A stretch of 46,608 nucleotides of DNA, from IMG/VR virus record IMGVR_UViG_3300004369_000030, positions 1-46,608 of that record; one strand, given 5' to 3'. Shown here one piece after another: positions 1,587-27,877 of this stretch (within the stretch, counting starts at the first letter, position 1; every line of letters starts with the position of its first letter). The notes under the pieces are model-generated. The model searched no databases and was not told the origin of the DNA. It saw nothing but the letters and a program-made list of their open reading frames with translations. This DNA is from a virus. The position numbers were made by a program, and so were the translations under genes.

Positions 1587-1616
1587 AGCCGGGCCGAGAG
1601 TCCCGAAAAACTTTTT

Positions 1617-1645
1617 GGCTCAGCCAGACGCTGCTGGGGGGAGCC
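1617..1645. terminator. Possible hairpin terminator downstream of the HNH gene
   Basis: GGCTC (1617-1621) pairs with GAGCC (1641-1645), with an inner CCAG/CTGG pairing. T-rich tracts lie on both sides (AAAAACTTTTT to the left, ATTTTTTA to the right). It follows the stop of the HNH gene. The U-tract is not directly adjacent to the stem in either direction, so this is a weak call. Confidence 0.3.
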
Positions 1646-1657
1646 GTGCCAGATTTT

Positions 1658-2170
1658 TTATCCTATGTCGTTCTGGTTGGATTTATCTGAGCGGTTGCTG
1701 TTGTGTTTGCGCCAGTATTCGCGGTTGTATTCGGTGCGTGGTGGGCGTTTTTTGTTGTTGTTTCGTCGGCATTCTCGGCAGAGGCGTTGGTTTGGTTTGG
1801 AGGGTTGGCGGTAGGTGTTTTGTTCGGTGTATTCGTGGCCTTGGGGGCAGTGTGTGACGGCGTGTTCTGGGTGTCGGCCTTTGTTGACCATGTCGCGCAT
1901 GTTGTAGGTTGCTGTTCCTGCGATGAGGTGGTTGGGGTTGACGCATTGTCGGTTGTCGCAGGTGTGGGTGATTTGGTAGCCGTTTGGGATTGTGCCTTTG
2001 TTGAGGTGGTATGAGTAGCGGTGGGCGAGCCATTTTTGTTTGTTGGCTTGGAGGCTTCCGTAGCCTTGGCTGTTGAGGGCTCCGGTCCAGTTCCAGCATT
2101 CGTTGTGGTTGGTGGTGCGGGCGACTTTTTTCCAGAAGAGTTGTTGGGGTGTGGCGTTTGGTCGTGGCAT
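1658..2170 (-). CDS. HNH endonuclease
   Basis: A 170-residue protein. Residues 24-30 (ECWNWTG) and about 49-82 (AHRYSYHLNKG...ITHTCDNRQCVNPNHL) are the classic phage HNH layout, with H69, C71, C76, N78/N80 and H81 as catalytic or zinc-binding residues. A second cysteine/histidine cluster follows (HCPQGHEYT near 107-114 and LCREC near 130-134). It is probably either a free-standing homing endonuclease or a nuclease aiding packaging; the sequence does not decide. Its position in a compositionally odd stretch favours a mobile origin. TATACT sits seven bases before the ATG, so the gene may have its own leaderless promoter. Confidence 0.85.
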   Translation of the reverse strand: MPRPNATPQQLFWKKVARTTNHNECWNWTGALNSQGYGSLQANKQKWLAHRYSYHLNKGTIPNGYQITHTCDNRQCVNPNHLIAGTATYNMRDMVNKGRHPEHAVTHCPQGHEYTEQNTYRQPSKPNQRLCRECRRNNNKKRPPRTEYNREYWRKHNSNRSDKSNQNDIG

Positions 2171-2175
2171 GGTTT

Positions 2176-2250
2176 TCAGTATAGGTAGGGGGGTTTGTGT
2201 TTGCGGGTGATGCGGTTCCAGATGTGTTTGATCCAGTGTTTTAGTGCCAT
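2176..2250 (-). CDS. Small basic peptide, 24 aa
   Basis: The ATG at 2250 lies inside the last codons of the SGNH-like gene 1. A 24-residue frame (starts MALKHWIKHIWNRI, ends PPYLY) closes with TGA five bases before the HNH start. GGAG lies about 10 bases upstream of the ATG. It is basic and aromatic-rich and I recognise no family. The overlap and its CA-rich codons, like those of its neighbours, support translation, but the length is short enough for chance. Confidence 0.35.
   Translation of the reverse strand: MALKHWIKHIWNRITRKHKPPYLY
2178..2183 (-). promoter_or_regulatory. -10 element for leaderless HNH transcript
   Basis: TATACT on the minus strand followed by seven bases and the HNH ATG at 2170. 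No good -35 is visible. It matches the TANNNT-N7-ATG geometry seen at 774-779 and 8208-8213. Confidence 0.35.
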
Positions 2251-3083
2251 GGGATTGGTTCTCCGTGGTGTGTTTCTGCGATGTGGTGGTGTGGGTGTGT
2301 GCCGGGGTGGTTGCAGCAGTTGGGGTGGCCGATGGGGGTGTTGGGGTTTTGGGGGTTGTGGTGTTTGTAGTTGGGGTGGTTGTGGAGTGCTTGGTGGGTG
2401 TTGTTGTTGTGTGTGGTGAGTGTGAGTTGTGTTTTTAGTGTTTGGAGTGTGTTGGTGAGGTGTTGGATTGCGCGGATGTTTTCGTTGAGGGTGGTTTGTA
2501 GGGGTGGGGTTTTTTTTGTTCCGTCGGGGGAGGTTTGTTTAAATTTGTGGGCGTTTTTTTGGTGTGTGTAGTAGTTGGTGGTGGTGGGGTCGTACCAGAT
2601 TGGTTGGTTTTGGTTGTTGTGGGTTGCCCATGATCGGGTGATGTCGGGGAGGCAGATGTGGATGTGTTTGGGGGTTCCCCAGTGGTGGATGTGGTTGTAG
2701 GTGATGTGGATGGTTTGTGCGATGCTGGCGCCGGGCCAGCCGATGTTGTTGAGGGTTTGGTTGGTGTGGTTGGCGAGGGTGTGTGGCCATGTGTGTTGGT
2801 GGTTGAGGGCGTATCCGGCGGTGATGCTGTCGCCTGCGGTGAGGAGGTCGGGGTTGGTGGTGAAGTTGGTGCCGTGCCAGTTTTGTTGGTTGACGGTGTA
2901 GTTGTGGTTGGGGATTGGGGGGTGCCAGTTTTGGCCTTGCGTCGTCCGGGTGCCGTTTAGATTTATCTGAATGTGTTCGTCGGTGAAGTGTTGGTAGACG
3001 ATGTTTTTGTGGTGTTCCCATGCGCTGTGGTAGTCGAAATCGATGATTTCTGGGATGGGTTGCTTCAGGTATTCAGAGAGCAT
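2241..3083 (-). CDS. SGNH-hydrolase-like protein 1
   Basis: A 280-residue protein. Block I is LTAGDSITAGYAL near residue 83, with the canonical G-D-S; block II is NNIGWPGAS near residue 112. The C-terminus has THPHHHIAETHHGEPI, which aligns with the block-V-like HYHLHFAELFLG of paralogue 3. SGNH enzymes remove or transfer ester-linked acyl groups, mostly on glycans; the substrate here is unknown. Of the three neighbouring paralogues this is the only one that keeps GDS. Its codons are extraordinarily CA-rich (many His, Asn, Thr, Gln), unlike the genes to its right. The start overlaps paralogue 2 by 19 bases. Confidence 0.65.
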   Translation of the reverse strand: MLSEYLKQPIPEIIDFDYHSAWEHHKNIVYQHFTDEHIQINLNGTRTTQGQNWHPPIPNHNYTVNQQNWHGTNFTTNPDLLTAGDSITAGYALNHQHTWPHTLANHTNQTLNNIGWPGASIAQTIHITYNHIHHWGTPKHIHICLPDITRSWATHNNQNQPIWYDPTTTNYYTHQKNAHKFKQTSPDGTKKTPPLQTTLNENIRAIQHLTNTLQTLKTQLTLTTHNNNTHQALHNHPNYKHHNPQNPNTPIGHPNCCNHPGTHPHHHIAETHHGEPIPWH

Positions 3084-3880
3084 GGTTCGTCGAGTTGTTC
3101 AAGTGTTGATGGTGAGATCGGGTGACCGAGGAATGTTTCTGCGAAGTGGAGTTGGTCGTGAAATCCGCCGTGGTGTCCGTCTGTCGAGTAACTCCACCAG
3201 TGACGTTGCGTGTCGTTGACGGGTTCGTGGCCACATTCTGTTGAGAGCGGCGTGTAGTCGGCTAATCCAAGTTCGGTGAAGGTGTGGTGAGCGGGTTTCC
3301 ACCATGTGGATAGTGTAAATCCGATTCCGAGGCGTTTTGTCCACCGGGAGATGCGCTGTACGGCATCAATGTTCATGCCGGTGATGATGCTGTGGTGTGG
3401 GCGAATATTTTTTCCGTCGTATTGGCGCAGTTTAAATTTATCTGAACCGTTTGAGGCGTAGCACTCTCTGATCGGATCCCAATTCAACCTATGTTCCGCA
3501 ACATCGTTGGTTTCGGGTGGCATCTTCGCGTACAAGCGATGAAGGTCAGGCCCAAGGAACATTATTTTCTGAGGTAAACCCCGAACAGCAAGATGCGACC
3601 AAATCGTATTCTCCATGGTCACATAGCCCATCCCCGTGAATCCAAGGACGTTCACTTTAAGACCAGTTTCGAGCGCAACGATGTGAGGCCACGATAATTC
3701 GACCGGAATGCAGTGCCCGGAAGTAAAACTGCACCCAACACAGATGATGTCTGGCTCTGGCCATCCGGACGTTCGTTCCGGAAAATCGCTTGACAGTTTG
3801 TGGTCAAAATTTGTGGTGTCTGGGCCCGGCCAGAATTGTGGAAAATCTTCAGTCGGCTGGTTCAAGGCTTGTTCCTTCAT
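3065..3880 (-). CDS. SGNH-hydrolase-like protein 2
   Basis: A 271-residue paralogue of its neighbours. IICVGCSFTSGHCIPVELSW (near residue 45) is block I, with GCS in place of GDS. VLGFTGMGYVTMEN corresponds to block II, and HGGFHDQLHFAETFLGHPIS near the C-terminus corresponds to the HxxHxAExFLG block of paralogue 3. The start overlaps the upstream gene by 32 bases, typical of a tightly coupled operon. I infer an SGNH fold; activity is uncertain because the usual Asp of the GDS motif is replaced. Confidence 0.6.
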   Translation of the reverse strand: MKEQALNQPTEDFPQFWPGPDTTNFDHKLSSDFPERTSGWPEPDIICVGCSFTSGHCIPVELSWPHIVALETGLKVNVLGFTGMGYVTMENTIWSHLAVRGLPQKIMFLGPDLHRLYAKMPPETNDVAEHRLNWDPIRECYASNGSDKFKLRQYDGKNIRPHHSIITGMNIDAVQRISRWTKRLGIGFTLSTWWKPAHHTFTELGLADYTPLSTECGHEPVNDTQRHWWSYSTDGHHGGFHDQLHFAETFLGHPISPSTLEQLDEPCSLNT

Positions 3881-5054
3881 GCCACGCCGTGATTTCGGCT
3901 AGATCGTCGTTGCTGATCTGTCGACCGAGGAACAGTTCTGCGAAATGTAGGTGATAGTGCATTCCGGGATGCGGATAGAAGCGGTCATGTTTGATGTCGA
4001 GCCCATGATCCCAGAATCTGTCCTGCCAGTTGTTTTGGGGTTTGCGGTCACAGCAATTTGTGCGTGATCCCATTGGTGACATTTCGTGTGGTGCGCCCCA
4101 CTCGTTGTACTCGTCGTCGGCGAAGAGGTACTGCTCATGTTGACGCTGATCACGTCGGAGGAAGTCTGGGATTCCAGCAAGATTCTCATATCCGATAAGT
4201 TTCAGGTGCATATGGGTGCGTCGACACCACGATGACATGCGAAATCCGATTCCGTTTGCTTCGCAGTACATCATCAACGTCTCGATCATCATGAGATTGT
4301 GGTGAGCGACAACGTCCACGGGGATCTGGGTTTTGTTGCCATCGATTGATTGATGCTTGTAAGGCTTTTGGCTACCCACTGTGCCGTTGTGGTCGATGTA
4401 GTACTGCAGTTCCGGGAAGTAGTGGATTCCTGTGACCGGCCAGATTTTGTCCCTAATGGTGCCGTCATCAATTTTTGTTTCCCGTGGCCCCCAGTACCTG
4501 TCGAGTGGAGGGACGAGAAACATGATGTTTCCGGGATTTCCATATTTACGAATGTGCGCGAATGCGGCGTAAACGCACTGCGATGGTGACGCTCCGGGCA
4601 TTCCGATGTTGTTGACGGTGTTGCGGGTCATGTGGCGAACGAGGGATGGCCAAATGAAGTTATCGACCATGCCGATGCCGCTTGTAACGGAACATCCCAA
4701 CGCTAGGACGGCAGGGTTTTTCTCAAATTCTGGCCCGTTCCAGTTGTCGCTGTTCACTCGGTGGATGAGTCCGGGGAGTTGATCTTCCGGGGAACGCGGC
4801 TTGGTGAATTCTTCGTACCACCTGTTGCCGTGCGTCCATCGAATTCCATCTGTTTCGTGAATCTTGTCGGTGAAGTGGCACATATCCACGGTGGGGTATA
4901 AGTGTCCCAATTGGTCGTCGACTCGGAGACGATGTAGTGGCGTGCTACTCCACCATCCGTCGCCAATAACTTCGGTGATGTATTCCTCTTCTTGGACGAT
5001 TTGGAAATTCCTGTGAATCACCCGATTTCGGTGGGCTATTTCGTCTTCGTTCAT
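3849..5054 (-). CDS. SGNH-hydrolase-like protein 3
   Basis: 401 residues from the ATG at 5054, which overlaps the carbamoyltransferase stop in an ATGA junction; a further in-frame ATG at 5099 lies inside the upstream gene and is less likely. Block I is LALGCSVTSGIGMVDNFIWP near residue 118, block II is NNIGMPGASPSQ, and a block-V-like HPGMHYHLHFAELFLG lies near residue 365. It is about 120 residues longer than its two paralogues, mainly through an N-terminal extension of roughly 90 residues and an insert rich in Trp, Arg and His. The three genes probably arose by tandem duplication. Role inferred: esterase or acyltransferase on a glycan or modified base. Confidence 0.65.
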   Translation of the reverse strand: MNEDEIAHRNRVIHRNFQIVQEEEYITEVIGDGWWSSTPLHRLRVDDQLGHLYPTVDMCHFTDKIHETDGIRWTHGNRWYEEFTKPRSPEDQLPGLIHRVNSDNWNGPEFEKNPAVLALGCSVTSGIGMVDNFIWPSLVRHMTRNTVNNIGMPGASPSQCVYAAFAHIRKYGNPGNIMFLVPPLDRYWGPRETKIDDGTIRDKIWPVTGIHYFPELQYYIDHNGTVGSQKPYKHQSIDGNKTQIPVDVVAHHNLMMIETLMMYCEANGIGFRMSSWCRRTHMHLKLIGYENLAGIPDFLRRDQRQHEQYLFADDEYNEWGAPHEMSPMGSRTNCCDRKPQNNWQDRFWDHGLDIKHDRFYPHPGMHYHLHFAELFLGRQISNDDLAEITAWHEGTSLEPAD

Positions 5055-6508
5055 GTTGCGCCAATCGTGTGAACCTGACGCCCGTATCGGCGATTCCACT
5101 CCTCGGCGTCACGCATGTCGTTAATGATTGGTTGACCCTTGATGTTGAGGCTGGTGTTGAGAAGCATGGGGATACCTGTGACGTCATGCCACTTTTTCAA
5201 AAGTTGGTAGAGGTCTGGGTGCTGCATCTCGTTTACTGTTTGTACGCGAGATGTACCATCTCGATGAACGATTCCCGGCACTCGATCGGGTTGAAGGCAT
5301 TTCACTGCGTATTGCATGTATGGAGATGGCCTGTCGATTGCGAACCAGTCATGAACGTGATCTTCCATGACGACAGGGGCGAACGGTCTGAACTGTTCGC
5401 GATGTTTGATGTCGTTAACTCGGTCTTTGATGTGAATGCTAGAAGGGTCGGCGAGAAGGCTTCTGTTTCCCAGAGATCGTGGGCCGAATTCTGCGCGACC
5501 TGATGCCACTGCCGCTACGCCATCAAGAACTAGCGAATCGTAGATTTCTTGAACTGGCCAAGGTCCACCGATGTCGTGCCCCAAGTATGGGCCTCGCCAT
5601 TCGACGTGGTGGCCGTATATGGAAAGTGCTGCACCAAGGCTTGATCCCGCGTCTCCGGGGTTTGGCATAATCCAGACTTCTTCCCAGATGCTAAGAAGTT
5701 TTGTGTTTGCTAAGCAGTTGAGGGCGCATCCACCCATGAAGACAAGGTTCGTCGACTTGCTGTCACGGCGTGCGTGTTGCATGAATTCAATGAGTCGTCG
5801 CGTGTAGACGAGTTGTGCTGCGGCGGCGATGTCGAATTTGTCTTGTTCTGTTTCGATCGGGTGTGGCCAGTCCGGAACCCCGTTGTGGAATGAGGCGGTT
5901 TGGAAGTCCCATCGCGGGAAGTAACTTTCGACATCATTGAGGAACCGGCGTTTATCGCCGTATGCGGCCATCCCCATGAGAATGTATTCCTCTGTTCCGG
6001 CTTTGAGCCCAACAAGATTTGTAAATGCGCTGTAGAAAAGACCAAAACTGAAGGGGTATTTGAATGATTCTCTTTGGTTGATGTATGGCCCTGAAGCATC
6101 CCAAATGCTTGCTGTTTCAATCTCGCCGATTGCGTCGAGGACGACGATTGTTGCGTCTTCGAAGCCCGATGTCAGGTATCCGGCTGCTGCGTGGCTGCGG
6201 TGATGCTTTACTTGTTTTTCGCGCGCATTGAGTACATGTTTATGCATTCTCTTGTATAGGAAACTGTACTCGCCGTTAATCCCTCCCCACATCATGCGTC
6301 TCAACCATTTGAGGTTGCGTTTTTCGAAATAGCAGATGATGTCGGGCGGGCCGAATTGAAGCGCTTCGTCGAGAAGTGAGCGATCAAGGTAGAACGTGTT
6401 TTTTTGTTTGTTGTATCTCTCACTGTGGGCAGCGAAAACTATCTCCCCATCTTCAATGATGGAGAGGGCGGCATCATGGCTGGAGTCGTTGATGCCATAG
6501 ATCCTCAT
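5051..6508 (-). CDS. NodU/CmcH-family carbamoyltransferase
   Basis: A 485-residue protein with the hallmarks of the family. The N-terminus MRIYGINDSSHDAALSII is the ATPase-like first strand. KHHRSHAAAGYLTSGF (residues 101-116, H102/H103/H106) is the metal and carbamoyl-adenylate site. MGGCALNCLAN lies near residue 258, AEFGPRSLGNRSLLADP near 338 and LLNTSLNIKGQPI near 448. These enzymes move a carbamoyl group from carbamoyl phosphate to a hydroxyl group, via a carbamoyl-adenylate. In phages, relatives have been tied to 5-carbamoyloxymethyl-cytosine in DNA; other relatives act on sugars and antibiotics. Flanking oxygenases could supply the hydroxyl acceptor. It is somewhat shorter than many family members but has all the blocks. 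ATGA overlaps occur at both ends. Confidence 0.9.
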   Translation of the reverse strand: MRIYGINDSSHDAALSIIEDGEIVFAAHSERYNKQKNTFYLDRSLLDEALQFGPPDIICYFEKRNLKWLRRMMWGGINGEYSFLYKRMHKHVLNAREKQVKHHRSHAAAGYLTSGFEDATIVVLDAIGEIETASIWDASGPYINQRESFKYPFSFGLFYSAFTNLVGLKAGTEEYILMGMAAYGDKRRFLNDVESYFPRWDFQTASFHNGVPDWPHPIETEQDKFDIAAAAQLVYTRRLIEFMQHARRDSKSTNLVFMGGCALNCLANTKLLSIWEEVWIMPNPGDAGSSLGAALSIYGHHVEWRGPYLGHDIGGPWPVQEIYDSLVLDGVAAVASGRAEFGPRSLGNRSLLADPSSIHIKDRVNDIKHREQFRPFAPVVMEDHVHDWFAIDRPSPYMQYAVKCLQPDRVPGIVHRDGTSRVQTVNEMQHPDLYQLLKKWHDVTGIPMLLNTSLNIKGQPIINDMRDAEEWNRRYGRQVHTIGAT

Positions 6509-7251
6509 CGCGGATCGTCGATATTCCAGTCAGGCGGAATCTTTGCCGGGTCGACATTAGGAACCTGCTCATAGGGAATCATGTTCATGATTTCCCTGTA
6601 GTTGCCGAAACGTTTCCACCAGTCGTTGGGGAGTTGTGGGAGGAGGTTGTGAATGAGCGTTCTTGCGTACGGCCAGAACGATGTCATCACAAACCTTTCG
6701 CCGGACTCGACCGGTGTGACTCCGTGCAAGTATTGGTGTGATGCTGGGAAAGCGATAAGCATTCCCGGTTTGGGCCTGATTTCGATGCCTTGATATTCGA
6801 AGTATGTTTGCCCACCGGTAAAATCGTCATTGAAGTAGAGGACCGAGGCAATGTCGTACTGGTGGAGACTTAGAGGCCCGTGCTCCTCTTTCACAGGGCT
6901 GAAGATGAGCATTCCGTTGGAGTGCCCGACGTCAGAATGGGCCGCTTGACGGTCTCCAACAATCCACTTCCTCATCGCCCATACGTTCGGCTGAAGGAGC
7001 GTTTCTCCAAAGAACCCTTCAAATGCGATCTTCGATCGCGCAGAGAATTCGTCGAAATAGTCGGCGAGGTACTTCCACTCTTGTTTCGTGTCTAAGACGT
7101 TTGTGTCTTGAGACCAGTGGGAACGCTCTTGGTGATCGGCCCCATCGGGTTGAACCCATGGGCAGTCTCCCCGGAAGAAGTTCATGAAACTTCCGCATTC
7201 TTCCTCTGTCAGGAAGTTGGGCGCCACAAAAAGTTGAGGGGCGCTGCTCAT
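6505..7251 (-). CDS. 2-oxoglutarate/Fe(II)-dependent oxygenase (prolyl-hydroxylase type)
   Basis: A 248-residue double-stranded beta-helix enzyme. Iron ligands are visible as H105-x-D107 (AAHSDVGH) and H176 (YLHGVTPV), with R186 (SGERFVMTSFW) as the 2-oxoglutarate anchor. The segment ASVLYFNDDFTGGQTYFEYQ followed by PKPGMLIAFPAS is typical of the P4Hc/PHM-like family. These hydroxylate proteins or small molecules; TET-like base oxidation would need a different subfamily, so a DNA substrate is not shown. It overlaps the carbamoyltransferase start (ATGA), which suggests hydroxylation followed by carbamoylation, an inference from context only. Confidence 0.85.
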   Translation of the reverse strand: MSSAPQLFVAPNFLTEEECGSFMNFFRGDCPWVQPDGADHQERSHWSQDTNVLDTKQEWKYLADYFDEFSARSKIAFEGFFGETLLQPNVWAMRKWIVGDRQAAHSDVGHSNGMLIFSPVKEEHGPLSLHQYDIASVLYFNDDFTGGQTYFEYQGIEIRPKPGMLIAFPASHQYLHGVTPVESGERFVMTSFWPYARTLIHNLLPQLPNDWWKRFGNYREIMNMIPYEQVPNVDPAKIPPDWNIDDPR

Positions 7252-7252
7252 G

Positions 7253-7606
7253 TCACTCTTCTTCGGCTGATTCGTCTTCCGTCGAGTTCAGTCCGTCGTG
7301 GTAGGCGGCGATGAGGACCTGTGCCTGACGCTCCATGGTGACGGGATCAAGAAGTTTGGGGAGACTGACTTCGAGGTGGCCAAGAATCTTGTAGGTGATG
7401 AGGGCCTTCTCGGTGTCGATGGAGAATGGCTGCATGAGTCGCAGGAATTCACCATCCCACATCACCACGTAGATTCGGGAGTCTTCGGCGTCGCCGTACG
7501 TGAGGGTACACATTTGGGTGTGTGCCGCTGCGGTGACTGCGCTGATCTCGGTGACCTGATCGCTGTCAACTGTCGGAATTTCTGTTTCGTCGCTCATGTC
7601 GTCCAT
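7253..7606 (-). CDS. Hypothetical acidic protein
   Basis: A 117-residue protein with acidic ends (SDETEIPTVDSD at the start, STEDESAEEE at the end) and a compact middle (CTLTYGDAEDSRIYVVMWDG). I recognise no family. A second in-frame ATG at 7597 is possible. It sits between the nuclease-like gene and the first oxygenase with gaps of 6 and 1 bases, so it belongs to the same operon. Confidence 0.65.
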   Translation of the reverse strand: MDDMSDETEIPTVDSDQVTEISAVTAAAHTQMCTLTYGDAEDSRIYVVMWDGEFLRLMQPFSIDTEKALITYKILGHLEVSLPKLLDPVTMERQAQVLIAAYHDGLNSTEDESAEEE

Positions 7607-7612
7607 GTTAGA

Positions 7613-8200
7613 TCAGTCGGTTGCCTTCCATTGGTTGATTGCGTAAAAAATTGGTGCGAGTTGGTGGATGTACAGATTCCAGCAGTCCGTCCAAAAAACG
7701 GTTCCGTTAGTGGGATCTTGCTGACCTGCCTTCCAAAACTTCTTGTGGCGGTCGAAGATTGTTCGGTTGGCTACGCCAACAACCCATGCGCTGTGGAATC
7801 TCTCAATTCCGGCTGTTGAGTTACGACCTCTCTGTAAGGAAACGAATCCGTAGTAATCAGCGATTTGGTGATCGTGGTTGTACGCAGGAAGTGTCGCCTC
7901 GTAGTTTGGCCGTGGGGCCACGGTTCTGTCCTTGGTTTTAACCTCTAGGGTTTTCTCCACAGACAGCCCGTTTACGATTCGTAAATCATGCTTTGTTGTA
8001 TACAACGGTGTGAATGGGACTTCGGAATCAGACAGGAGTTTTTCGAAGATGACCTCGCCAAGACAGCCGACGATGTTGGCGTCTTCCTTGCGGTGGGAAC
8101 CGGGAAGGATTGGAAGGCTCTCTGCACGCTCCATAGCCCTTTGATAGATATCAGAAGTGATATGGATACGGACGAAACTGTCGTTTTTGACCGTCGTCAT
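7613..8200 (-). CDS. PD-(D/E)XK nuclease-like protein
   Basis: 195 residues from the ATG at 8200. The order GCLGEVIFEKLL (E49), TKHDLRI (D72) and TLEVKTKDR (E86-V-K88) followed by HDHQIADYYGFVSL matches the restriction-endonuclease-like fold: an acidic helix, then D...ExK. No named family comes to mind. The start is chosen because the promoter at 8201-8236 predicts a transcript beginning on this ATG; a longer reading from 8236 would start inside the -35 box. As first gene of the operon holding oxygenases and carbamoyltransferase it might cut DNA lacking the phage modification, but that is speculation. Confidence 0.65.
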   Translation of the reverse strand: MTTVKNDSFVRIHITSDIYQRAMERAESLPILPGSHRKEDANIVGCLGEVIFEKLLSDSEVPFTPLYTTKHDLRIVNGLSVEKTLEVKTKDRTVAPRPNYEATLPAYNHDHQIADYYGFVSLQRGRNSTAGIERFHSAWVVGVANRTIFDRHKKFWKAGQQDPTNGTVFWTDCWNLYIHQLAPIFYAINQWKATD

Positions 8201-8236
8201 ATGCCATACCCTATCAAACGGGTATGACGCTGTCAA
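8201..8236 (-). promoter_or_regulatory. Strong sigma-70-type promoter of the modification operon
   Basis: TTGACA (8236-8231), a 17-base spacer, TAGGGT (8213-8208), seven bases, then the ATG at 8200. The message would be leaderless. It drives leftward transcription into the nuclease, oxygenase, carbamoyltransferase and SGNH genes. Confidence 0.7.
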
Positions 8237-8239
8237 GAG

Positions 8240-8920
8240 TCATTCGTAGAAAAATTGACCAGTGCTGAGCGCTTGTGGAGTTTGGTCTCGATGCCACACG
8301 TTGATGACGATGACCTGCTTGACGCCGGACTCGATTGGGGTGGTTTCGTGAAGCCTGTGCCCCGCATCGAATACCACAAGGCGGTCTGGCCTGTAGGCGA
8401 TTCTCTCTCGCCTTTCGATTGGCGAGACCAATTTGTCCGTGTTGGCGGCTTCCAATTGTTGGAAACCCTCATCGATTCCGCTTTCGTGGATTTCGAGGAA
8501 TGATCCACTCGCCTCACTGAATCCGTACCACACGCACCCGATGTGAGGCCCATGGAACCACTGGAAGTCAGCGTACATAAACGTATCTTCGTCAACGTGA
8601 CGGCCAAGAAATTGACCGGGAAGAAACGTGCGTGTCCAGTACTCGAATCCCAGAACTTCGTCTTCGGGGAAAGGTAGAAGACCCGTTCCTCGCCAAACTT
8701 TCTCTATGAGCCGTTGACGTGCGGTGCGAGCCTCATCGTTCATCCACCCGGACCAAAACATGTACGGCGCTTGGCAGTCAGCCTGATCGTAGTGAAACTC
8801 GTTGAGCGTTTTGCCGATATTTTCTCCGGGCATCGCCTCGGGGAAAAACGTGTTATCTGCGCGTATCTGGCTTTCGAGTTCCGTCCCAGCGACAAAATTG
8901 TCGAAAACAAATAAGGTCAT
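8240..8920 (-). CDS. Second 2-oxoglutarate/Fe(II)-dependent oxygenase
   Basis: A 226-residue protein. Iron ligands appear as H108-x-D110 (GRHVDED) and H191 (GHRLHETTPIESG), with K201 or a nearby basic residue as the 2-oxoglutarate anchor; VFDAGHRLHETTPIESGVKQ is the recognisable distal block. It differs clearly from the oxygenase at 6505-7251, so it is unlikely to be a recent duplicate. The start overlaps the histone-like gene stop (ATGA). Substrate unknown; a hydroxyl-generating role in the same pathway is inferred. Confidence 0.75.
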   Translation of the reverse strand: MTLFVFDNFVAGTELESQIRADNTFFPEAMPGENIGKTLNEFHYDQADCQAPYMFWSGWMNDEARTARQRLIEKVWRGTGLLPFPEDEVLGFEYWTRTFLPGQFLGRHVDEDTFMYADFQWFHGPHIGCVWYGFSEASGSFLEIHESGIDEGFQQLEAANTDKLVSPIERRERIAYRPDRLVVFDAGHRLHETTPIESGVKQVIVINVWHRDQTPQALSTGQFFYE

Positions 8921-9201
8921 TTACTGAAGATGCTGACCAGACGTGCGCGCCAAGACGGCTTCTCAAGGATCGTCACTTCTGGGGCTGGGGCAGCGGCCAC
9001 GGGTGCCTCGGGCTCTTTATGCTCTTTCGGGGTTGGGTCCAATTCAGAGTACGGGCCAACAACCTTCTTGGGGGCTGCTTTCTTGGCAGGAGCCTTCTTG
9101 GCTGGGGCCTTCTTCACTGCCTTTTTCGCGCCAGCCTTCTTGGCTGCGGGCGTCTTCTTCGTCGCCTTCTTTGCGGCTTTCTTGGGCGGGTTGTTGGTCA
9201 T
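8917..9201 (-). CDS. Histone-H1-like Lys/Ala-rich protein
   Basis: 94 residues from the ATG at 9201, which has TTGGAG about 12 bases upstream. Residues 6-46 are an almost pure run of Lys, Ala and Pro in KKA, KKT and AKK units, like bacterial H1/HU-tail proteins that bind DNA. A short conserved-looking end follows (GPYSELDPTPKEH, then SWRARLVSIFSK). It is probably a DNA-compacting or nucleoid-binding phage protein. Confidence 0.7.
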   Translation of the reverse strand: MTNNPPKKAAKKATKKTPAAKKAGAKKAVKKAPAKKAPAKKAAPKKVVGPYSELDPTPKEHKEPEAPVAAAPAPEVTILEKPSWRARLVSIFSK

Positions 9202-9234
9202 TTTGGTGTTACTCCAAATTCTGGTTTGCTGAAC

Positions 9235-9247
9235 TATTGTACTGGAT
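9235..9247 (+). promoter_or_regulatory. Overlapping divergent -10 elements
   Basis: TATTGT (9235-9240) is followed by seven bases and the rightward GTG at 9248, the leaderless geometry seen elsewhere. Its complement contains TACAAT, a good -10 for the leftward histone-like gene, which has a Shine-Dalgarno sequence and so a short leader. The two promoters therefore share the same bases and should compete. No clear -35 is visible on either side. Confidence 0.4.
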
Positions 9248-9874
9248 GTGGAATCATATCCCGACACATATTCGAAGATCGCATTAGCCCTTACAAGTGC
9301 TCAGGTGGCCAAGGAAAGTCTGGTTGCCGAGCAGGGGGCTGGGAGCGACGTGCCTTTCAACTTTTTTGGCTGGGATGAAGCCACGCTCTCGATGATAGTC
9401 CAATTGGACCCAGAGAAGATGAAGTTGCCGATGCCTCAGCGTTTCGAGTTGTGCTCGGGGGCGATGCAGGCGATGAGGTCCTATTTTGGATGCACAGAGT
9501 TGACGTTTGTTGCGGAGGGATTTCATTCCAGCAAGCCAGAACTCACCAAAAACGAGAATCTAAAAGAATTATTTGACGCTGGCTCTGCCCATGTTCGTGA
9601 ATGTCTCACCGTGTGCCATGTCTCGCTAAACGATTGGCGGGAGCCTGAAGCGACCTTCGTCTCCGTCACCTTCCAATACCTAGCGGATTTCGTGATATGG
9701 GATGATGAAAGGGCCTACACGCGCGGCGTCGGTCGAGTTTTGCGCGACGTCCCATTCCCCGCTATGATGGCCGCATCCCTCAGGGCGCCGTTCGAAAATC
9801 CGGATGAAGAAGAAACATACCGGGTCATAGAACTACTACTGAACAAGGGATTCAATGTAAACCAGTTCGTATAA
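9248..9874 (+). CDS. Hypothetical protein
   Basis: 208 residues from a GTG; an overlapping ATG at 9246 is in another frame and soon stops. Contains DVPFNFFGWDEATLSMIVQL near the start and a C-terminal FNVNQFV. Mixed alpha/beta, soluble, no signal peptide or membrane segment seen and no family recognised. Start of the rightward block that carries the ribonucleotide reductase. Confidence 0.65.
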   Translation: MESYPDTYSKIALALTSAQVAKESLVAEQGAGSDVPFNFFGWDEATLSMIVQLDPEKMKLPMPQRFELCSGAMQAMRSYFGCTELTFVAEGFHSSKPELTKNENLKELFDAGSAHVRECLTVCHVSLNDWREPEATFVSVTFQYLADFVIWDDERAYTRGVGRVLRDVPFPAMMAASLRAPFENPDEEETYRVIELLLNKGFNVNQFV

Positions 9875-9896
9875 GTAATAGTAGTAAGATGGGGGA

Positions 9897-10208
9897 ATGG
9901 AACATCCTTTTCATAGGTCGGGGAATCTGTGGGTTGACGGGCTGGAAGTGTCATTTGCCCGTGCTCAGCGAGAGCCGTGTCCTGTTTGCGGACACCCGAC
10001 TGGGGATTGTTCTGGTGACCTCCCTGCACCGGAAAAGATTGCTGGCTTCAACACAATTGAATCGTTGGTGCCTGAGCAAACGTTCCTTCTTGAGGAGGAT
10101 ATTTACGAGGACCGCCAGATAACACCTTTCACAACCGCCCGCGTTTTGAAGTATGCAAAGGGAAAACACATCCCGCTTCAAGAAGCGAGAAATCTAGGAT
10201 TGGCTTAA
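9897..10208 (+). CDS. Small Zn-binding actinophage-type protein
   Basis: A 103-residue protein with CPVCGHPTGDCSGD near residues 28-41 (three Cys and one His, a zinc-knuckle-like cluster). A C-terminal block follows: FLLEEDIYEDRQITPFTTAR, then VLKYAKGKHIPLQEARNLGL. That block is one I associate with a conserved protein of actinobacteriophages of unknown function. GATGGGGGA just before the ATG can act as ribosome-binding site. It lies 90 bases upstream of the reductase and is probably co-transcribed. Confidence 0.7.
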   Translation: MEHPFHRSGNLWVDGLEVSFARAQREPCPVCGHPTGDCSGDLPAPEKIAGFNTIESLVPEQTFLLEEDIYEDRQITPFTTARVLKYAKGKHIPLQEARNLGLA

Positions 10209-10232
10209 CGTTTTCCGTATTTGTCGACCTAG

Positions 10233-10238
10233 TACAAT
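10233..10238 (+). promoter_or_regulatory. GTACAAT-type -10 upstream of the reductase
   Basis: AGTACAATC in the 90-base gap before the ribonucleotide reductase, sharing the GTACAAT core with three other gene-free spots. The predicted start near 10245 leaves a leader of about 54 bases. The gap is far too short for a cobalamin riboswitch. Confidence 0.35.
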
Positions 10239-10298
10239 CAATAAACGGGCGATACTAACCCGATCAAGACCATCCAATTAAATCGAAAGAGTCCCACT

Positions 10299-12224
10299 AT
10301 GACCCTGCTCACGGAAGAATTCCTAGCCTCGTACGCCCCAAAATCGCCTCCGTGGGGGTTCAACGGCATGGGGGAAATCGTCTACCTCCGCACCTACAGT
10401 CGTCCCAAGGATGACGGAACAATCGAAACATGGCCTGAGACCATTCGGCGCGTCATCGAAGGTGCGGCAGAGATCGGCGTCCCCTACACGCAGAAGCAAG
10501 CCGAAGCGCTTTTTGATCACATGTTCAACCTCCGATGCTCTTTCTCCGGTAGGGCGCTCTGGCAGTTGGGAACTCCTCTGGTCAAGGCTTTCAACGCAGC
10601 ATCGTTGAACAACTGTTACTTCGTGAATATCGAGAAGATCGAAGATTTCGAGTTCTTGTTCGACCACCTGATGCTTGGTGGCGGTGTCGGTTTTTCTGTT
10701 GAGCGTGCGAAGATCCACGAACTTCCAAAGGTCAAGGCGGGAGTCTCCATCAGTCACGAGAGGAGCAACGACGCAAATGTCATTGTTCCGGACAGCCGTC
10801 AGGGCTGGTCACGTCTCGTGCATTCGGTGCTGAAGTCATACTTCTACACGGGCAAGTCCTTCTCGTATTCGACGATCCTGATTCGTGAGTACGGCGCTCC
10901 ACTCAAGACTTTTGGTGGAACCGCGTCAGGCCCGGGTGCCTTGATTGACGGAATTGCCGATATTTGCAAGGTGATGGATGCCCGAGTTGGCAAGAAGTTG
11001 CGCTCCATTGACGTTCTCGACATTTGCAACATTATCGGTCGGATCGTCGTGTCGGGTTCGTCGCGCCGTTCTGCACAAATCGCCATTGGCGACCCAGACG
11101 ATGTTCTTTTCTTGCGGGCAAAGAACTGGTCCACTGGTTCGATTCCAGCGTGGCGAGCAAACTCCAACAACTCCATTTACGCGGACTCTTGGGATGAGAT
11201 TGTTCCCGAGGTGTGGAAGGGTTACGACGGTTCAGGCGAGCCTTACGGTTTCGTGAACCGAAAGTTGGCCCGCCAGTTCGGTCGGCTTGGCCACAAGAAG
11301 CCGGATCCGACGATTGAGGGCTACAACCCGTGCGCCGAGATCGCCTTGGGTGACGGCGAGTCGTGCAACCTTGCGACGGTATTCCTCCCGAATGTTGAGT
11401 CCCTCGCTCAGTTCCGTGAAATTTCCGAACTTCTCTACATGTGTCAGAAACACATCACGAGAATGGACTACCCGTACGAGAAGACGACCAAGATTGTGTC
11501 GAAGAACGCTCGCCTCGGGCAGTCAGTAACGGGAATTCTTCAGTGCTCGGAGAAGCAGTTGTCGTGGCTCGACCCGGTGTACGAGTATCTGGAAGGTCTC
11601 GACGAGAAGTACTCAGCCGAGCATGGTTTCCCCAAGTCCGTTCGTCTGACAACGGTTCAGCCATCAGGAACACTTGCCCTTCTTCCGGGCGTAACTCCGG
11701 GCGTGCATCCCGCATTCGCTCGCTTTTATATCCGTCGTGTTCGTTTCGGTTCTTCCGACCCGTTGGTGGACGCATGCCGCAAGCGGGGATACCCCGTCAA
11801 GTGGGATGTCGGAATTGACGGACGCGAGGATCGCACACGTTACGTCGTGGAGTTCCCTTGCGAGTCGCCCGAGGGTGCGGTTCTTGCTGCCGACATGACT
11901 GCCGTCGAGCAGTTGGAGTGGGTCAAGAAGATGCAGACCGACTGGGCGGACAATGCGGTTTCAGTGACCGTGTACTACCGGCTTGAGGAACTTCCGGAGA
12001 TCAAAGAGTGGATGTCGAAGAACTACACCAATGGACTCAAGTCGGTGTCGTTCCTTCTCCATTCAGACCACAACTTCCCCCTGCCTCCCTACGAGGAATG
12101 CAGCAAGGAAGAGTACGAGAAGATGCTCGGAAAGATCAACTTTTCCGTACCGTTGGTCCAGACCTCATTCACGGATGAGTTGACGCTCGACGATTGTGCT
12201 ACCGGAGCGTGTCCTATTAAGTAG
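10299..12224 (+). CDS. nrdJ: Adenosylcobalamin-dependent (class II) ribonucleoside-triphosphate reductase
   Basis: 641 residues of the monomeric Lactobacillus leichmannii RTPR type. C106 (NNCYFVN) and C356 (ESCNLA) are the active-site thiol pair; C345 and E347 in NPCAEI are the thiyl-radical cysteine and catalytic glutamate. VQPSGTLALLPGVTPGVHPA is the phosphate-binding and substrate loop. The extreme C-terminus CATGACPIK carries the reducing CX4C pair (C633, C638). It makes deoxynucleoside triphosphates for phage replication without oxygen or a second subunit, but needs host cobalamin. The length fits one-subunit enzymes slightly trimmed relative to bacterial ones. A weak GAAAGAG ribosome-binding site precedes the ATG. 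Confidence 0.93.
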   Translation: MTLLTEEFLASYAPKSPPWGFNGMGEIVYLRTYSRPKDDGTIETWPETIRRVIEGAAEIGVPYTQKQAEALFDHMFNLRCSFSGRALWQLGTPLVKAFNAASLNNCYFVNIEKIEDFEFLFDHLMLGGGVGFSVERAKIHELPKVKAGVSISHERSNDANVIVPDSRQGWSRLVHSVLKSYFYTGKSFSYSTILIREYGAPLKTFGGTASGPGALIDGIADICKVMDARVGKKLRSIDVLDICNIIGRIVVSGSSRRSAQIAIGDPDDVLFLRAKNWSTGSIPAWRANSNNSIYADSWDEIVPEVWKGYDGSGEPYGFVNRKLARQFGRLGHKKPDPTIEGYNPCAEIALGDGESCNLATVFLPNVESLAQFREISELLYMCQKHITRMDYPYEKTTKIVSKNARLGQSVTGILQCSEKQLSWLDPVYEYLEGLDEKYSAEHGFPKSVRLTTVQPSGTLALLPGVTPGVHPAFARFYIRRVRFGSSDPLVDACRKRGYPVKWDVGIDGREDRTRYVVEFPCESPEGAVLAADMTAVEQLEWVKKMQTDWADNAVSVTVYYRLEELPEIKEWMSKNYTNGLKSVSFLLHSDHNFPLPPYEECSKEEYEKMLGKINFSVPLVQTSFTDELTLDDCATGACPIK

Positions 12225-14533: not shown

Positions 14534-16162
14534 TTATTGGTTATTTTTCCAATAATCCCTGACAAACTGGGCGCCGCGTGGACCGAGGAAGTCATCAAAC
14601 GCAGCATCATCGTTGATCTCGAATGCGCCATCTCTTGTGCGCTTAGCAATCAACGACGGGGGTTGGACATTGTTATTCCAGAGGTAGAAGTCGTCGTACA
14701 GGCCACGAGTGATCTGTCGGGGGACAATCGGCTGCAATTCTCCAGCGATCTGACTGCCAAACCAGCCGGGTAGAACAGGACCACCCTCGGCCTTGTTTAT
14801 TGCGTTTCGGCTTGCGACTCTTTTATCCGCTTCAGCGCCCGGAACATATACAAAATGCCCGACCGTGGCATATCCGTGGCGCTTGGCCCATTCAAGGTGT
14901 TCGGTTCTTTTGCCGGTTCCGGTGACCACTACGTCTGTTCCTGCTTCGCGACCAGCATCCATCGCTCGGTCCGTAACGTCTCGGGATGCCGGGTGGACGG
15001 CTCCAGCGCCACGTCCATTATCCCAGCCCTCTAACTGTGTTTTAATCCAGTCGGGGTCGATGAATGCCGCCTCATTTGAGCGAGGCACATCGAGCGTTCC
15101 GTCTTCGATAAGGGATGTTTTTCCCGCCCCCGTTGTTCCACCAACAAAATGCAGGGTGCGGGATCCTTCTGGCTTATTTCTGTGTTCGGGCGCAACCTTG
15201 TTAATTATTGCTGCAGTTGCTGCGCGTCCACCAGAGCCAACTCTCCCTGATCGCATGCCACTGCGGAGATCACGGAACTGTTGCATCGAATTTTCGGATA
15301 GATTTTTCCGAACAGAGAGCGGAGCCTCCGGATACCAGCCCGGATCATTTTCCAGCAACTTCTCCCAAGAGGCTTTCGACGGCTTCTTTGGCTTCACGGC
15401 CTTCTTGACTGCCTTGCCGACATTCCTTACGACGGCAGGACGCTCAAACGGTGTTGAATCCTGAATAATTCCGTCGTTATCACCATCAACGGCGTTGGGG
15501 TCGTATGGCTGAGCAGACCGAAGCATCCGGCCAAGAGACTTGCCGTACAACTCTTCATGTAGGGAAACTTTCCGGCGCAACTTGCGCTTTTTCAGTTTTG
15601 CTTGCTCTTCTTCGAGAAGTCGACGTGCGCGCTGACGATCCATGCGGTCACGGTATCTGCGTCCAAGCGACGTTGATCCAGACCTACGGGCATAATCGGT
15701 GATGTTGGTGCATGGCGTCCAAACCGTGTTCCCTCCAGTAGAGCGTCGACGGGCCACTCCGATGCACCCCATCTGGCGAGCCCTACGTCGCGCGGAGTTG
15801 ATGTCAGTAAAAACATCCTCATCGCCATCGAAAGGAATTGCTGACGCTGCTTTTCCGCCAATCGCACCAGAAACCAGACCGGCGGAGATGGTGTCAATAG
15901 AGACGACGCCACGTTCGCCAAGTTTTTCCCAATTCTTTTTGTTCTTGGCTTTTTTCTTGCGGCCCTTGCGTTCGCGAACACCTTGAAAATCTCGAACCTT
16001 AGAAAGTACGGATTTTTCTTCCTGTTCCTGTTCGAGGCGCTCGTACTCTTCATGAGTCTCGCAGGCCATCCAACCACCATCGGGGTGCTGATGCGCGCCA
16101 GAGCAACCAAGTTCCTTGGCGCGCCGCAATGCGGCGGCTTTGCTCGCGGCGCCACCAGACAT
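14534..16162 (-). CDS. Zeta-toxin-like kinase with capsid-operon repeat modules
   Basis: 542 residues from the ATG at 16162, one base after the upstream stop. Residues 4-42 and 120-160 are two copies of a roughly 40-residue module (A..RA..(L/M)GC.G......GW..C....(E/D)Y.R). Residues about 205-240 hold the shared KSLGRMLRS plus VDGDNDGIIQDS...FERP module, and GMRSGR follows near 304. The C-terminal domain (about 330-510) is a P-loop kinase: GGTTGAGKTS with K348, IDPDWIK as substrate-side acid, VVVTGTG, then ADKRVASR. This order matches Zeta/UDP-GlcNAc kinases and their phage relatives. Zeta toxins phosphorylate UDP-sugars and block wall synthesis; the substrate here is unproven. No antitoxin gene is evident next door. 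Its place in the capsid operon suggests virion packaging. Confidence 0.8.
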   Translation of the reverse strand: MSGGAASKAAALRRAKELGCSGAHQHPDGGWMACETHEEYERLEQEQEEKSVLSKVRDFQGVRERKGRKKKAKNKKNWEKLGERGVVSIDTISAGLVSGAIGGKAASAIPFDGDEDVFTDINSARRRARQMGCIGVARRRSTGGNTVWTPCTNITDYARRSGSTSLGRRYRDRMDRQRARRLLEEEQAKLKKRKLRRKVSLHEELYGKSLGRMLRSAQPYDPNAVDGDNDGIIQDSTPFERPAVVRNVGKAVKKAVKPKKPSKASWEKLLENDPGWYPEAPLSVRKNLSENSMQQFRDLRSGMRSGRVGSGGRAATAAIINKVAPEHRNKPEGSRTLHFVGGTTGAGKTSLIEDGTLDVPRSNEAAFIDPDWIKTQLEGWDNGRGAGAVHPASRDVTDRAMDAGREAGTDVVVTGTGKRTEHLEWAKRHGYATVGHFVYVPGAEADKRVASRNAINKAEGGPVLPGWFGSQIAGELQPIVPRQITRGLYDDFYLWNNNVQPPSLIAKRTRDGAFEINDDAAFDDFLGPRGAQFVRDYWKNNQ

Positions 16163-16163
16163 G

Positions 16164-16526
16164 TCAGTCCCCGTAGTCGTAGTCCATCGACAATCGAGCA
16201 ACTTTCGAATCGCTGATTTCGATTTTCTCTAATTCTGCGGCAGCCTTCTGGGCCTCGAACTTTTCCTTGCCGTACCGCTTCTGGTACATCTCCGCTTCCT
16301 CGATCTGCTCCGTGTACTCATCAACGATGGGGGCATGTGGATCAGAGTCCGGGTCGGCATTTCCTGCCTCGCGAACTTTCTTCAGAAACTCTTCACGCAT
16401 CTCTGCGTCAATCGAGAATGGCGGATAGTCGGCAGCAACCGAAAGACGCTGGTGACTATCACCAAAGGTCTTTCGTGCGTTTACCTGATCTTCGTCGAGA
16501 TCTGAAGCGTAATAATTTTCTGCCAT
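16164..16526 (-). CDS. Hypothetical acidic protein
   Basis: A 120-residue acidic, probably helical protein (QIEEAEMYQKRYGKEKFEAQ, then AAAELEKIEISD). The ATG overlaps the stop of the giant upstream gene (TAATG), so it is translationally coupled. No family recognised; as a small partner between two putative effector proteins it might be an assembly or immunity factor, which is a guess. Confidence 0.65.
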   Translation of the reverse strand: MAENYYASDLDEDQVNARKTFGDSHQRLSVAADYPPFSIDAEMREEFLKKVREAGNADPDSDPHAPIVDEYTEQIEEAEMYQKRYGKEKFEAQKAAAELEKIEISDSKVARLSMDYDYGD

Positions 16527-27674: not shown

Positions 27675-27877
27675 TCTCCAACCTCACGTAACGCATCCTC
27701 ATATGCTTTACGGTGAATTTCCAACACTTCACTTGCGGGAACGCGAGAGGTGAAAGCGGACGCCAAGTACGACTTCGAACCTTCGTGTTTCCGAAGATGC
27801 TCTTTTACAACCTCGGTGTCAAGGAGGGTGCGAACGCGATCATCTATTCCCCACGAACGACTCTGTTCATCAAGCAT
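27671..27877 (-). CDS. Small hypothetical protein
   Basis: 68 residues from the ATG at 27877, which has GGAG seven bases upstream and overlaps the upstream stop by eight bases; a TTG at 27910 is a weaker alternative. Helical and charged (DTEVVKEHLRKHEG, then LEIHRKAYEDALREVGE). No family recognised. It lies between the 2483- and 847-residue proteins. Confidence 0.6.
   Translation of the reverse strand: MLDEQSRSWGIDDRVRTLLDTEVVKEHLRKHEGSKSYLASAFTSRVPASEVLEIHRKAYEDALREVGE

Follow-up and report, generated by a model that had tools for sequence, protein, structure and literature searches.

The IMG/VR virus record IMGVR_UViG_3300004369_000030 is a 46.6-kb viral fragment (46,608 nt, here called the window and numbered over its whole length) whose minus strand carries an operon with a carbamoyltransferase (CT), two Fe(II)/2-oxoglutarate (2OG) oxygenases and three SGNH-like genes (SGNH1 to SGNH3). 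Several described systems bring comparable activities together. In crocagin biosynthesis, the 2OG oxygenase CgnC, the esterase-like hydrolase CgnD and the carbamoyltransferase CgnI modify one ribosomal peptide (PMC10070186). The window encodes the same trio of activities, and SGNH1 has CgnD as its closest solved relative in fold. Crocagin biosynthesis is a biochemical precedent for the joint action of such enzymes on one peptide; it differs in that no match to CgnD is found at the sequence level and in that the acceptor proposed here is a long virion-tail repeat rather than a released small peptide. SGNH (gvgA/pnp1B) and CT (gvgF/pnp1D) genes are core partners in the FVG (gvg/pnp1) and gvg-like clusters, whose FVG product is, however, a free amino-acid antibiotic. 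The saxitoxin cluster likewise unites SxtI (a CT) and SxtL (a GDSL protein) in one pathway, in this case to an alkaloid; SxtL has been proposed in the literature to remove carbamoyl, a hypothetical role. Both the FVG and the saxitoxin likenesses were drawn from published descriptions. Among phage enzymes, the 5-hydroxymethylcytosine (5hmC) carbamoyltransferase (eLife 2021) belongs to the same superfamily but is 24% identical to the window CT, differs from it in marker residues and has a thymidylate-synthase context that was not found for the window CT. The Nol-like CTs of T4-like cyanophages share the family phrog_1601 and sometimes lie near 2OG oxygenase and tail-fibre genes, but they form a separate CT clade and have no SGNH partner.

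In related viruses, the cassette lies in one operon with a repeat protein encoded beside a tail-fibre gene, and it therefore probably decorates a tail protein and not viral DNA. We assign a probability of about 0.5 to the reading that the CT, SGNH and 2OG genes form an accessory part of a phage protein-modification system whose main acceptor is this protein, an assignment that we infer from gene neighbourhood. The protein has a PASTA/Ig-like N-terminus and, at its C-terminus, consecutive XFPP units, X being His, Phe, Tyr or Trp. At locus L014, whose CT is 63% identical to that of the window, the product of the gene two upstream of a 2OG-SGNH-CT run has a PASTA-like domain and, after it, FFPP/HFPP units in tandem. 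A gene of the same kind occupies positions 30436-31011 of the 137-kb IMG/VR contig G001 (locus L003), immediately behind a tail fibre gene (phrog_454, 2e-32) and immediately ahead of genes for the oxygenases OGb and OGc, a DUF6065 protein, TauD and the oxygenase OGa, with a tryptophan halogenase and further 2OG/TauD genes nearby.

A DNA-pattern search of viral contigs for the repeat matched 83 stretches, in which HFPP (653 units) and FFPP (466) prevail over YFPP (37) and WFPP (12). The usual gene order at these loci is repeat-OGb-OGc-DUF6065-TauD-OGa, where the oxygenase labels are jackhmmer-based and mix subfamilies. The arrangement is polarised: counted before dereplication, a same-strand oxygenase follows within 4 kb downstream of the repeat at 44 of the 54 loci with room for one, versus 2 of 37 upstream. 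After dereplication, 28 of 34 repeat clusters have an oxygenase, compared with a background of ~6% of genes among CT loci, and most repeat loci that lack an adjacent oxygenase hold oxygenases or SGNH genes elsewhere on the fragment. Isolate phages yielded no DUF6065 relative and only distant, partial matches to OGb, and no mention of the repeat strings or of DUF6065 was found in the open-access literature.

Four contigs (L219, L242, L250 and L189, the last being the contig of L014) carry homologues of CT, SGNH and the window's second oxygenase, 2OG-2, inside the repeat operon, between or beside the repeat gene and OGb. Identities to the window genes are 52-63% for CT, 33-37% for 2OG-2 and 24-31% for SGNH, and the L189 operon also includes a homologue (47%) of the first oxygenase, 2OG-1. 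SGNH and 2OG-2 occupy the same place in L218, L222 and L261, without a CT in the stretch examined. The repeat operon and the CT unit stand at separate places on the contigs of L003, L012, L276 and L093/L094, the last with a broken CT. Among contigs of a second CT set whose CT is at least 60% identical, the repeat is present on those longer than 90 kb but missing from some short ones. Other proline-rich repeats were also encountered: L020/L021 have a different one, (PAPAPIPV)n, flanked by probable tail genes and by a 2OG-SGNH-CT run on the same strand, and a further aromatic/proline repeat protein (PPPMF and PPYF units; L337, 3438-4187) lies directly beside an oxygenase gene.

G001 comes from a sister of the window's phage, and the window is collinear with its 61.8-104.6 kb (ribonucleotide reductase 89%, major head protein 88% and terminase 88% identical). 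G001 has the complete repeat operon at 25.7-31.0 kb and the counterpart of the window's operon at 97.7-104.6 kb, in the same gene order and with most genes 60-78% identical, SGNH2 having no orthologue. Because of this collinearity the repeat region falls outside the window fragment, and the window's phage may itself encode the repeat. Its lineage is that of a myovirus, as genes for tail sheath, tape measure and baseplate proteins in G001 show. The tryptophan halogenase of G001 (L179, 16584-18065; PF04820, 1e-98) lies near tail genes and 2OG/TauD oxygenases; a second phage tryptophan halogenase stands beside SGNH-CT in L041 (5403-6950).

In the mechanism that we propose, Fe(II)/2OG and TauD-type oxygenases would hydroxylate residues of the repeat, namely prolines and/or the beta-carbons of the aromatic residues, and the CT would add carbamoyl, from carbamoyl phosphate and ATP, to some of the new hydroxyls. 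The SGNH enzymes, with their Ser-Asp-His residues, might then act on the resulting esters or on the peptide as acyl or carbamoyl transferases, editing esterases or peptidases, and the repeat thus decorated would function in adsorption or in adhesion of the tail tip. In the window's lineage, the CT, SGNH and 2OG genes of this module occupy a separate operon. More broadly, and at somewhat less than even odds, these loci may represent an undescribed class of phage system, in which a tail XFPP-repeat protein (up to ~28 units), some five to ten dedicated oxygenases and, optionally, halogenase, CT and SGNH enzymes would yield a tail appendage that is chemically hardened, adhesive or metal-binding and to some degree resembles mussel foot proteins.

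The minus-strand run of the window, from 9267 to 1658, comprises the following features:

8917-9267, minus strand: Lys/Ala/Pro-rich (PAKK) H1/HC2-like protein, 116 aa, the operon's first gene; weak PF07382 match, orthologue upstream of 2OG-1 in L003 and L093
8240-8920, minus strand: Fe(II)/2OG oxygenase-like protein 2OG-1, 226 aa, divergent, with HVD...H; homologue within the XFPP-repeat operon of L014/L189
8208-8236, minus strand: promoter-like TTGACA-N17-TAGGGT, with counterparts in sister phages
7613-8200, minus strand: predicted PD-(D/E)XK nuclease-fold protein, by AlphaFold model, Foldseek and invariant residues; likely start ATG 8200, open reading frame called from TTG 8236
7253-7606, minus strand: acidic conserved protein, 117 aa, which travels with 2OG-2 (window, L003, L012, L013, L048, L093)
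6505-7251, minus strand: Fe(II)/2OG oxygenase 2OG-2, putatively of prolyl 4-hydroxylase type; 30-37% homologues in XFPP-repeat operons
5051-6508, minus strand: predicted NodU/TobZ-type O-carbamoyltransferase (CT), 485 aa; 52-63% homologues in XFPP-repeat operons
3849-5099, minus strand: SGNH1, 416 aa, overlapping CT by 49 nt; Ser137, Asp368, His377 and invariant Arg201
3065-3880, minus strand: SGNH2, 271 aa, without an orthologue in the sister L003
2241-3083, minus strand: SGNH3, 280 aa, window copy without the block V Asp; extreme A+C bias of the coding strand
1658-2170, minus strand: HNH endonuclease, the run's last gene, with the same A+C bias as SGNH3; probably outside the operon's chemistry

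The CT, oxygenase and SGNH-like genes named in a preliminary description of this DNA are thus all present at their coordinates; overlooked there were the PD-(D/E)XK-fold gene, the 117-aa gene and the Lys-rich gene. Where it had the genes overlap start to stop, both overlaps and short gaps are seen: from the 8917-9267 gene to SGNH3, successive spacings along the minus strand are -4, 3, 6, 1, -4, -49, -32 and -19 nt, so that all genes as far as SGNH3 overlap or lie at most 6 nt apart. At the corresponding position, two sister phages have counterparts of the shared promoter that it placed at 8201-8236 (TTGACA-N17-TAAAGT and TTGACG-N17-TACGAG), which is kept in one and nearly so in the other; TTGACA-N17-TAGGGT at 8236-8208 was not among the results of a stricter sigma-70 scan. 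Since the promoter sits after 2OG-1, it can drive the genes from 7613 onwards but is not shared by 2OG-1. TTG 8236 belongs to its -35 box, and ATG 8200 is the likelier start of the nuclease-fold gene.

The carbamoyltransferase has both the N- and C-terminal Carbam_trans domains (PF16861, 9e-52; PF02543, 7e-36; phrog_1601, 6e-101). Its Kae1-like metal-site residues H102, H103 and H106 and the active-site strip GRxEFGPRxLGNRS (337-350) are kept among four relatives, and the strip aligns with solved CTs, which by sequence makes this protein a NodU/TobZ-type O-carbamoyltransferase. Viral contigs had to be searched with an alignment, as a single-sequence query gave no match; the resulting 80 loci were reduced to 59, including the window, by dereplication of CT at 85% identity. 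In this set the share of SGNH genes is 29% at the position next to CT, 10% one position further and mostly 2-4% beyond; they lie within 2 kb of CT in 37 loci and abut it on the same strand in 18. A second, overlapping CT set gave 38% for the first and 12% for the second neighbour, then 0-3%. Of 21 loci examined around the nearest bacterial CTs (mostly 40-47% identical), 14 likewise hold an SGNH homologue in the vicinity. CT and SGNH are thus a genuine conserved neighbour pair in both phages and bacteria, whereas the gradient of 2OG oxygenases around CT is shallower (9-12% at ranks 1-2 vs 4-9% at ranks 3-9). In a quick tree of CTs, to which a long-branch warning applies, the SGNH-linked phage and bacterial sequences form one large group; the cyanophage Nol-like CTs, which lack SGNH, fall outside it, as does the 5hmC carbamoyltransferase, whose branch is very long. 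Cytochrome P450 genes stand directly beside CT in the sister phages L012 (9453-9925), L013 (5560-6801) and L048 (6700-8004), identified by PF00067 in L013 and L048 and, for the partial reading frame of L012, by a start like that of L013.

The three SGNH-like proteins are paralogous to each other (BLASTP 4e-24, 1e-18 and 2e-16). SGNH3 alone matches PF13472, and weakly (6.6e-4). Their clade, some members of which match DUF6071, retains the block I Ser, the block II Gly and the block V Asp/His, with equivalents of the SGNH1 residues in SGNH2; the block III Asn (GxND) is replaced by P/T-x-x-x-Arg, the Arg being invariant in 60/60 and 51/51 sequences. The window copy of SGNH3, from which the block V Asp has been lost, is possibly inactive. 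The SGNH profile matches GDSL structures and esterases at 1e-7, and a Foldseek search with the SGNH1 model returned CgnD first (E 9e-5), followed by TesA-like esterases, with a probability of 1.00 to CgnD, TesA and other GDSL structures. No relative of SGNH1 was found among isolate phages. This CT-paired clade, in which an invariant Arg stands where the block III Asn would be, is an enzyme family of phages and bacteria that awaits a function.

The preliminary description had envisaged a new modification of DNA or of the virion surface. The DNA version, in which a hydroxymethyl- or hydroxy-base would be carbamoylated in the manner of 5cmdC, draws on the 5-carbamoyloxymethylcytosine formed by a CT of the same superfamily (PMC8670742), on a match of 2OG-2 to Tet_JBP (PF12851) at 18.6 bits, below the cut-off of 34.9, and on the presence of a PD-(D/E)XK protein in the operon. 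However, neither a C5-methyltransferase (PF00145), whose absence from the window had been noted before, nor a thymidylate synthase/dCMP-hydroxymethylase (PF00303, control matched in nine genomes) was found in the window or in G001; both records are fragments, and the absence is therefore not proof. The published 5hmC enzyme departs from TobZ at positions 408, 421 and 423 (PMC8670742), where it aligns with Ile/Cys/Thr and the window CT with Val/Gly/Arg. The window CT hence retains the TobZ-type G421 and R423, W408 alone being altered, and is far from the 5hmC enzyme in both identity and tree position. 2OG-2 is nearer to prolyl hydroxylases, and a separate Tet_JBP search found no match, although its control matched nowhere either. 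We consider DNA modification very improbable and have discarded it on the missing genes, the low identity, the marker residues and the tree. A substrate local to the window, either the PAKK-rich protein (8917-9267) or the Pro-rich linker of a 2483-aa head protein, is only slightly less improbable. The PAKK-rich gene overlaps 2OG-1 by 4 nt, an adjacency retained in L003 and L093, and the 27870-35321 product does contain a Pro-rich segment; yet no PAKK-rich gene is listed alongside the CT/SGNH/2OG genes of L014, L219 and L250, and Lys is not a site of O-carbamoylation unless hydroxylated. No collagen-like GXY acceptor was found in the window.

A more serious competitor, which we still regard as unlikely, is that CT-SGNH is a general module for the O-carbamoylation of small molecules or glycans, comparable to NodU or to natural-product enzymes, whose target here would be a glycan of the host or virion or else a metabolite, the proximity of the pair to the repeat operon being secondary. 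Many phages that lack the repeat do have the pair, as do bacteria (Geodermatophilus, Nocardia, Edaphobacter and others), and its neighbours include genes for P450, tryptophan halogenase, radical SAM/SPASM proteins, NAD epimerase and UDP-glucose dehydrogenase; SGNH and CT are core genes in FVG and gvg-like clusters (PMC4010436, PMC8064604), and sugar genes are found close to the CTs of cyanophages and pelagiphages. Those cyanophage CTs, however, belong to the separate clade without SGNH, and four contigs have CT and SGNH inside the repeat operon. Glycan assembly was rejected after a Glycos_transf_2 search of the window and of G001 proved negative, and no glycosyltransferase family is common to at least two of the 163 CT-SGNH neighbours listed. 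The earlier suggestion of a virion-surface modification is kept with the tail-fibre-adjacent XFPP protein as the likely acceptor, in place of the glycan on which the SGNH enzymes had been thought suited to make acyl changes.

Several observations weigh against modification of the tail repeat. Most CT-SGNH phages and bacteria show no XFPP repeat nearby, and the pair must thus have other acceptors too. PTPEP-type Pro-rich proteins near CT loci, found in a short-period repeat scan, are not close to oxygenases and were discounted as support for the repeat-oxygenase link. The tail region of G001 has no counterpart in the window, from which the repeat gene is absent. In L093 roughly the first 50 codons are all that is left of the CT, which runs into a frameshifted SGNH3-like pseudogene (9714-10900), while the genes from 2OG-1 to 2OG-2 and the repeat operon remain intact; CT-SGNH is thus dispensable to the rest, and the two halves of the operon are separable. 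The oxygenases, both of which had been taken for the prolyl-hydroxylase type, bear this out in part. 2OG-2 (PF13640, 2e-8) has prolyl 4-hydroxylases as its best solved relatives (7e-5) and keeps H105-S-D107, H176 and R186 in both sequences compared, which argues weakly for that type; for 2OG-1 no solved relative was found and the PF13640 match is weak (0.01), its HxD...H being invariant in six homologues. SGNH1 and CgnD superpose with low TM-scores (0.26/0.34), which extra regions account for, and the SGNH profile does not reach CgnD (8a2n) at E <= 10. The kinship is thus one of fold only, and direct homology to CgnD was rejected.

Among the minor genes, the 7613-8236 product is, from its AlphaFold model (pLDDT 81.5), a PD-(D/E)XK-fold protein, with EcoRV as the best Foldseek match (E 5.6e-4, prob 0.99) followed by NhoI, I-Ssp6803I and Hjc; E61, D84 and K100 of its acidic/Lys core are invariant and E98 nearly so, and the invariant residues of the alignment comprise GE, D, K and Q. 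The 117-aa protein had no match in Pfam, PHROGs or NCBIfam. SGNH3 and HNH show an extreme strand composition (window 1601-3300; L003 9001-10800; L013 7701-10300; L093 9601-10900), their coding strand being ~75-80% A+C with C at 57-67%, T at 0-2% and G at 4-7% of third codon positions. The bias is retained in sister phages and, among 179 loci, essentially confined to the window's clade; genes further upstream in the operon have an ordinary composition. As a guess, it may stem from deamination of one strand or from selection that keeps the mRNA unstructured. The head-gene region encodes very large proteins (14534-16201, 25131-27674, 27870-35321 and 36909-41846) with a zeta-like P-loop segment (GGTTGAGKT) and two HExxH-type (HEMGH) segments; the maturation protease forms the N-terminus of one of 1645 aa. 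These are possibly head-packaged, injected proteins.

Fe(II)/2OG oxygenases and Nol-like CTs are abundant in aquatic phages and are usually filed as auxiliary metabolic genes. The recurrent, polarised operon links these enzymes to a concrete candidate acceptor encoded beside a tail fibre gene. Should the repeat prove to be hydroxylated and carbamoylated, phages would make tail materials that are elaborated after translation, and the role of many such "auxiliary metabolic" oxygenases would become directly testable.

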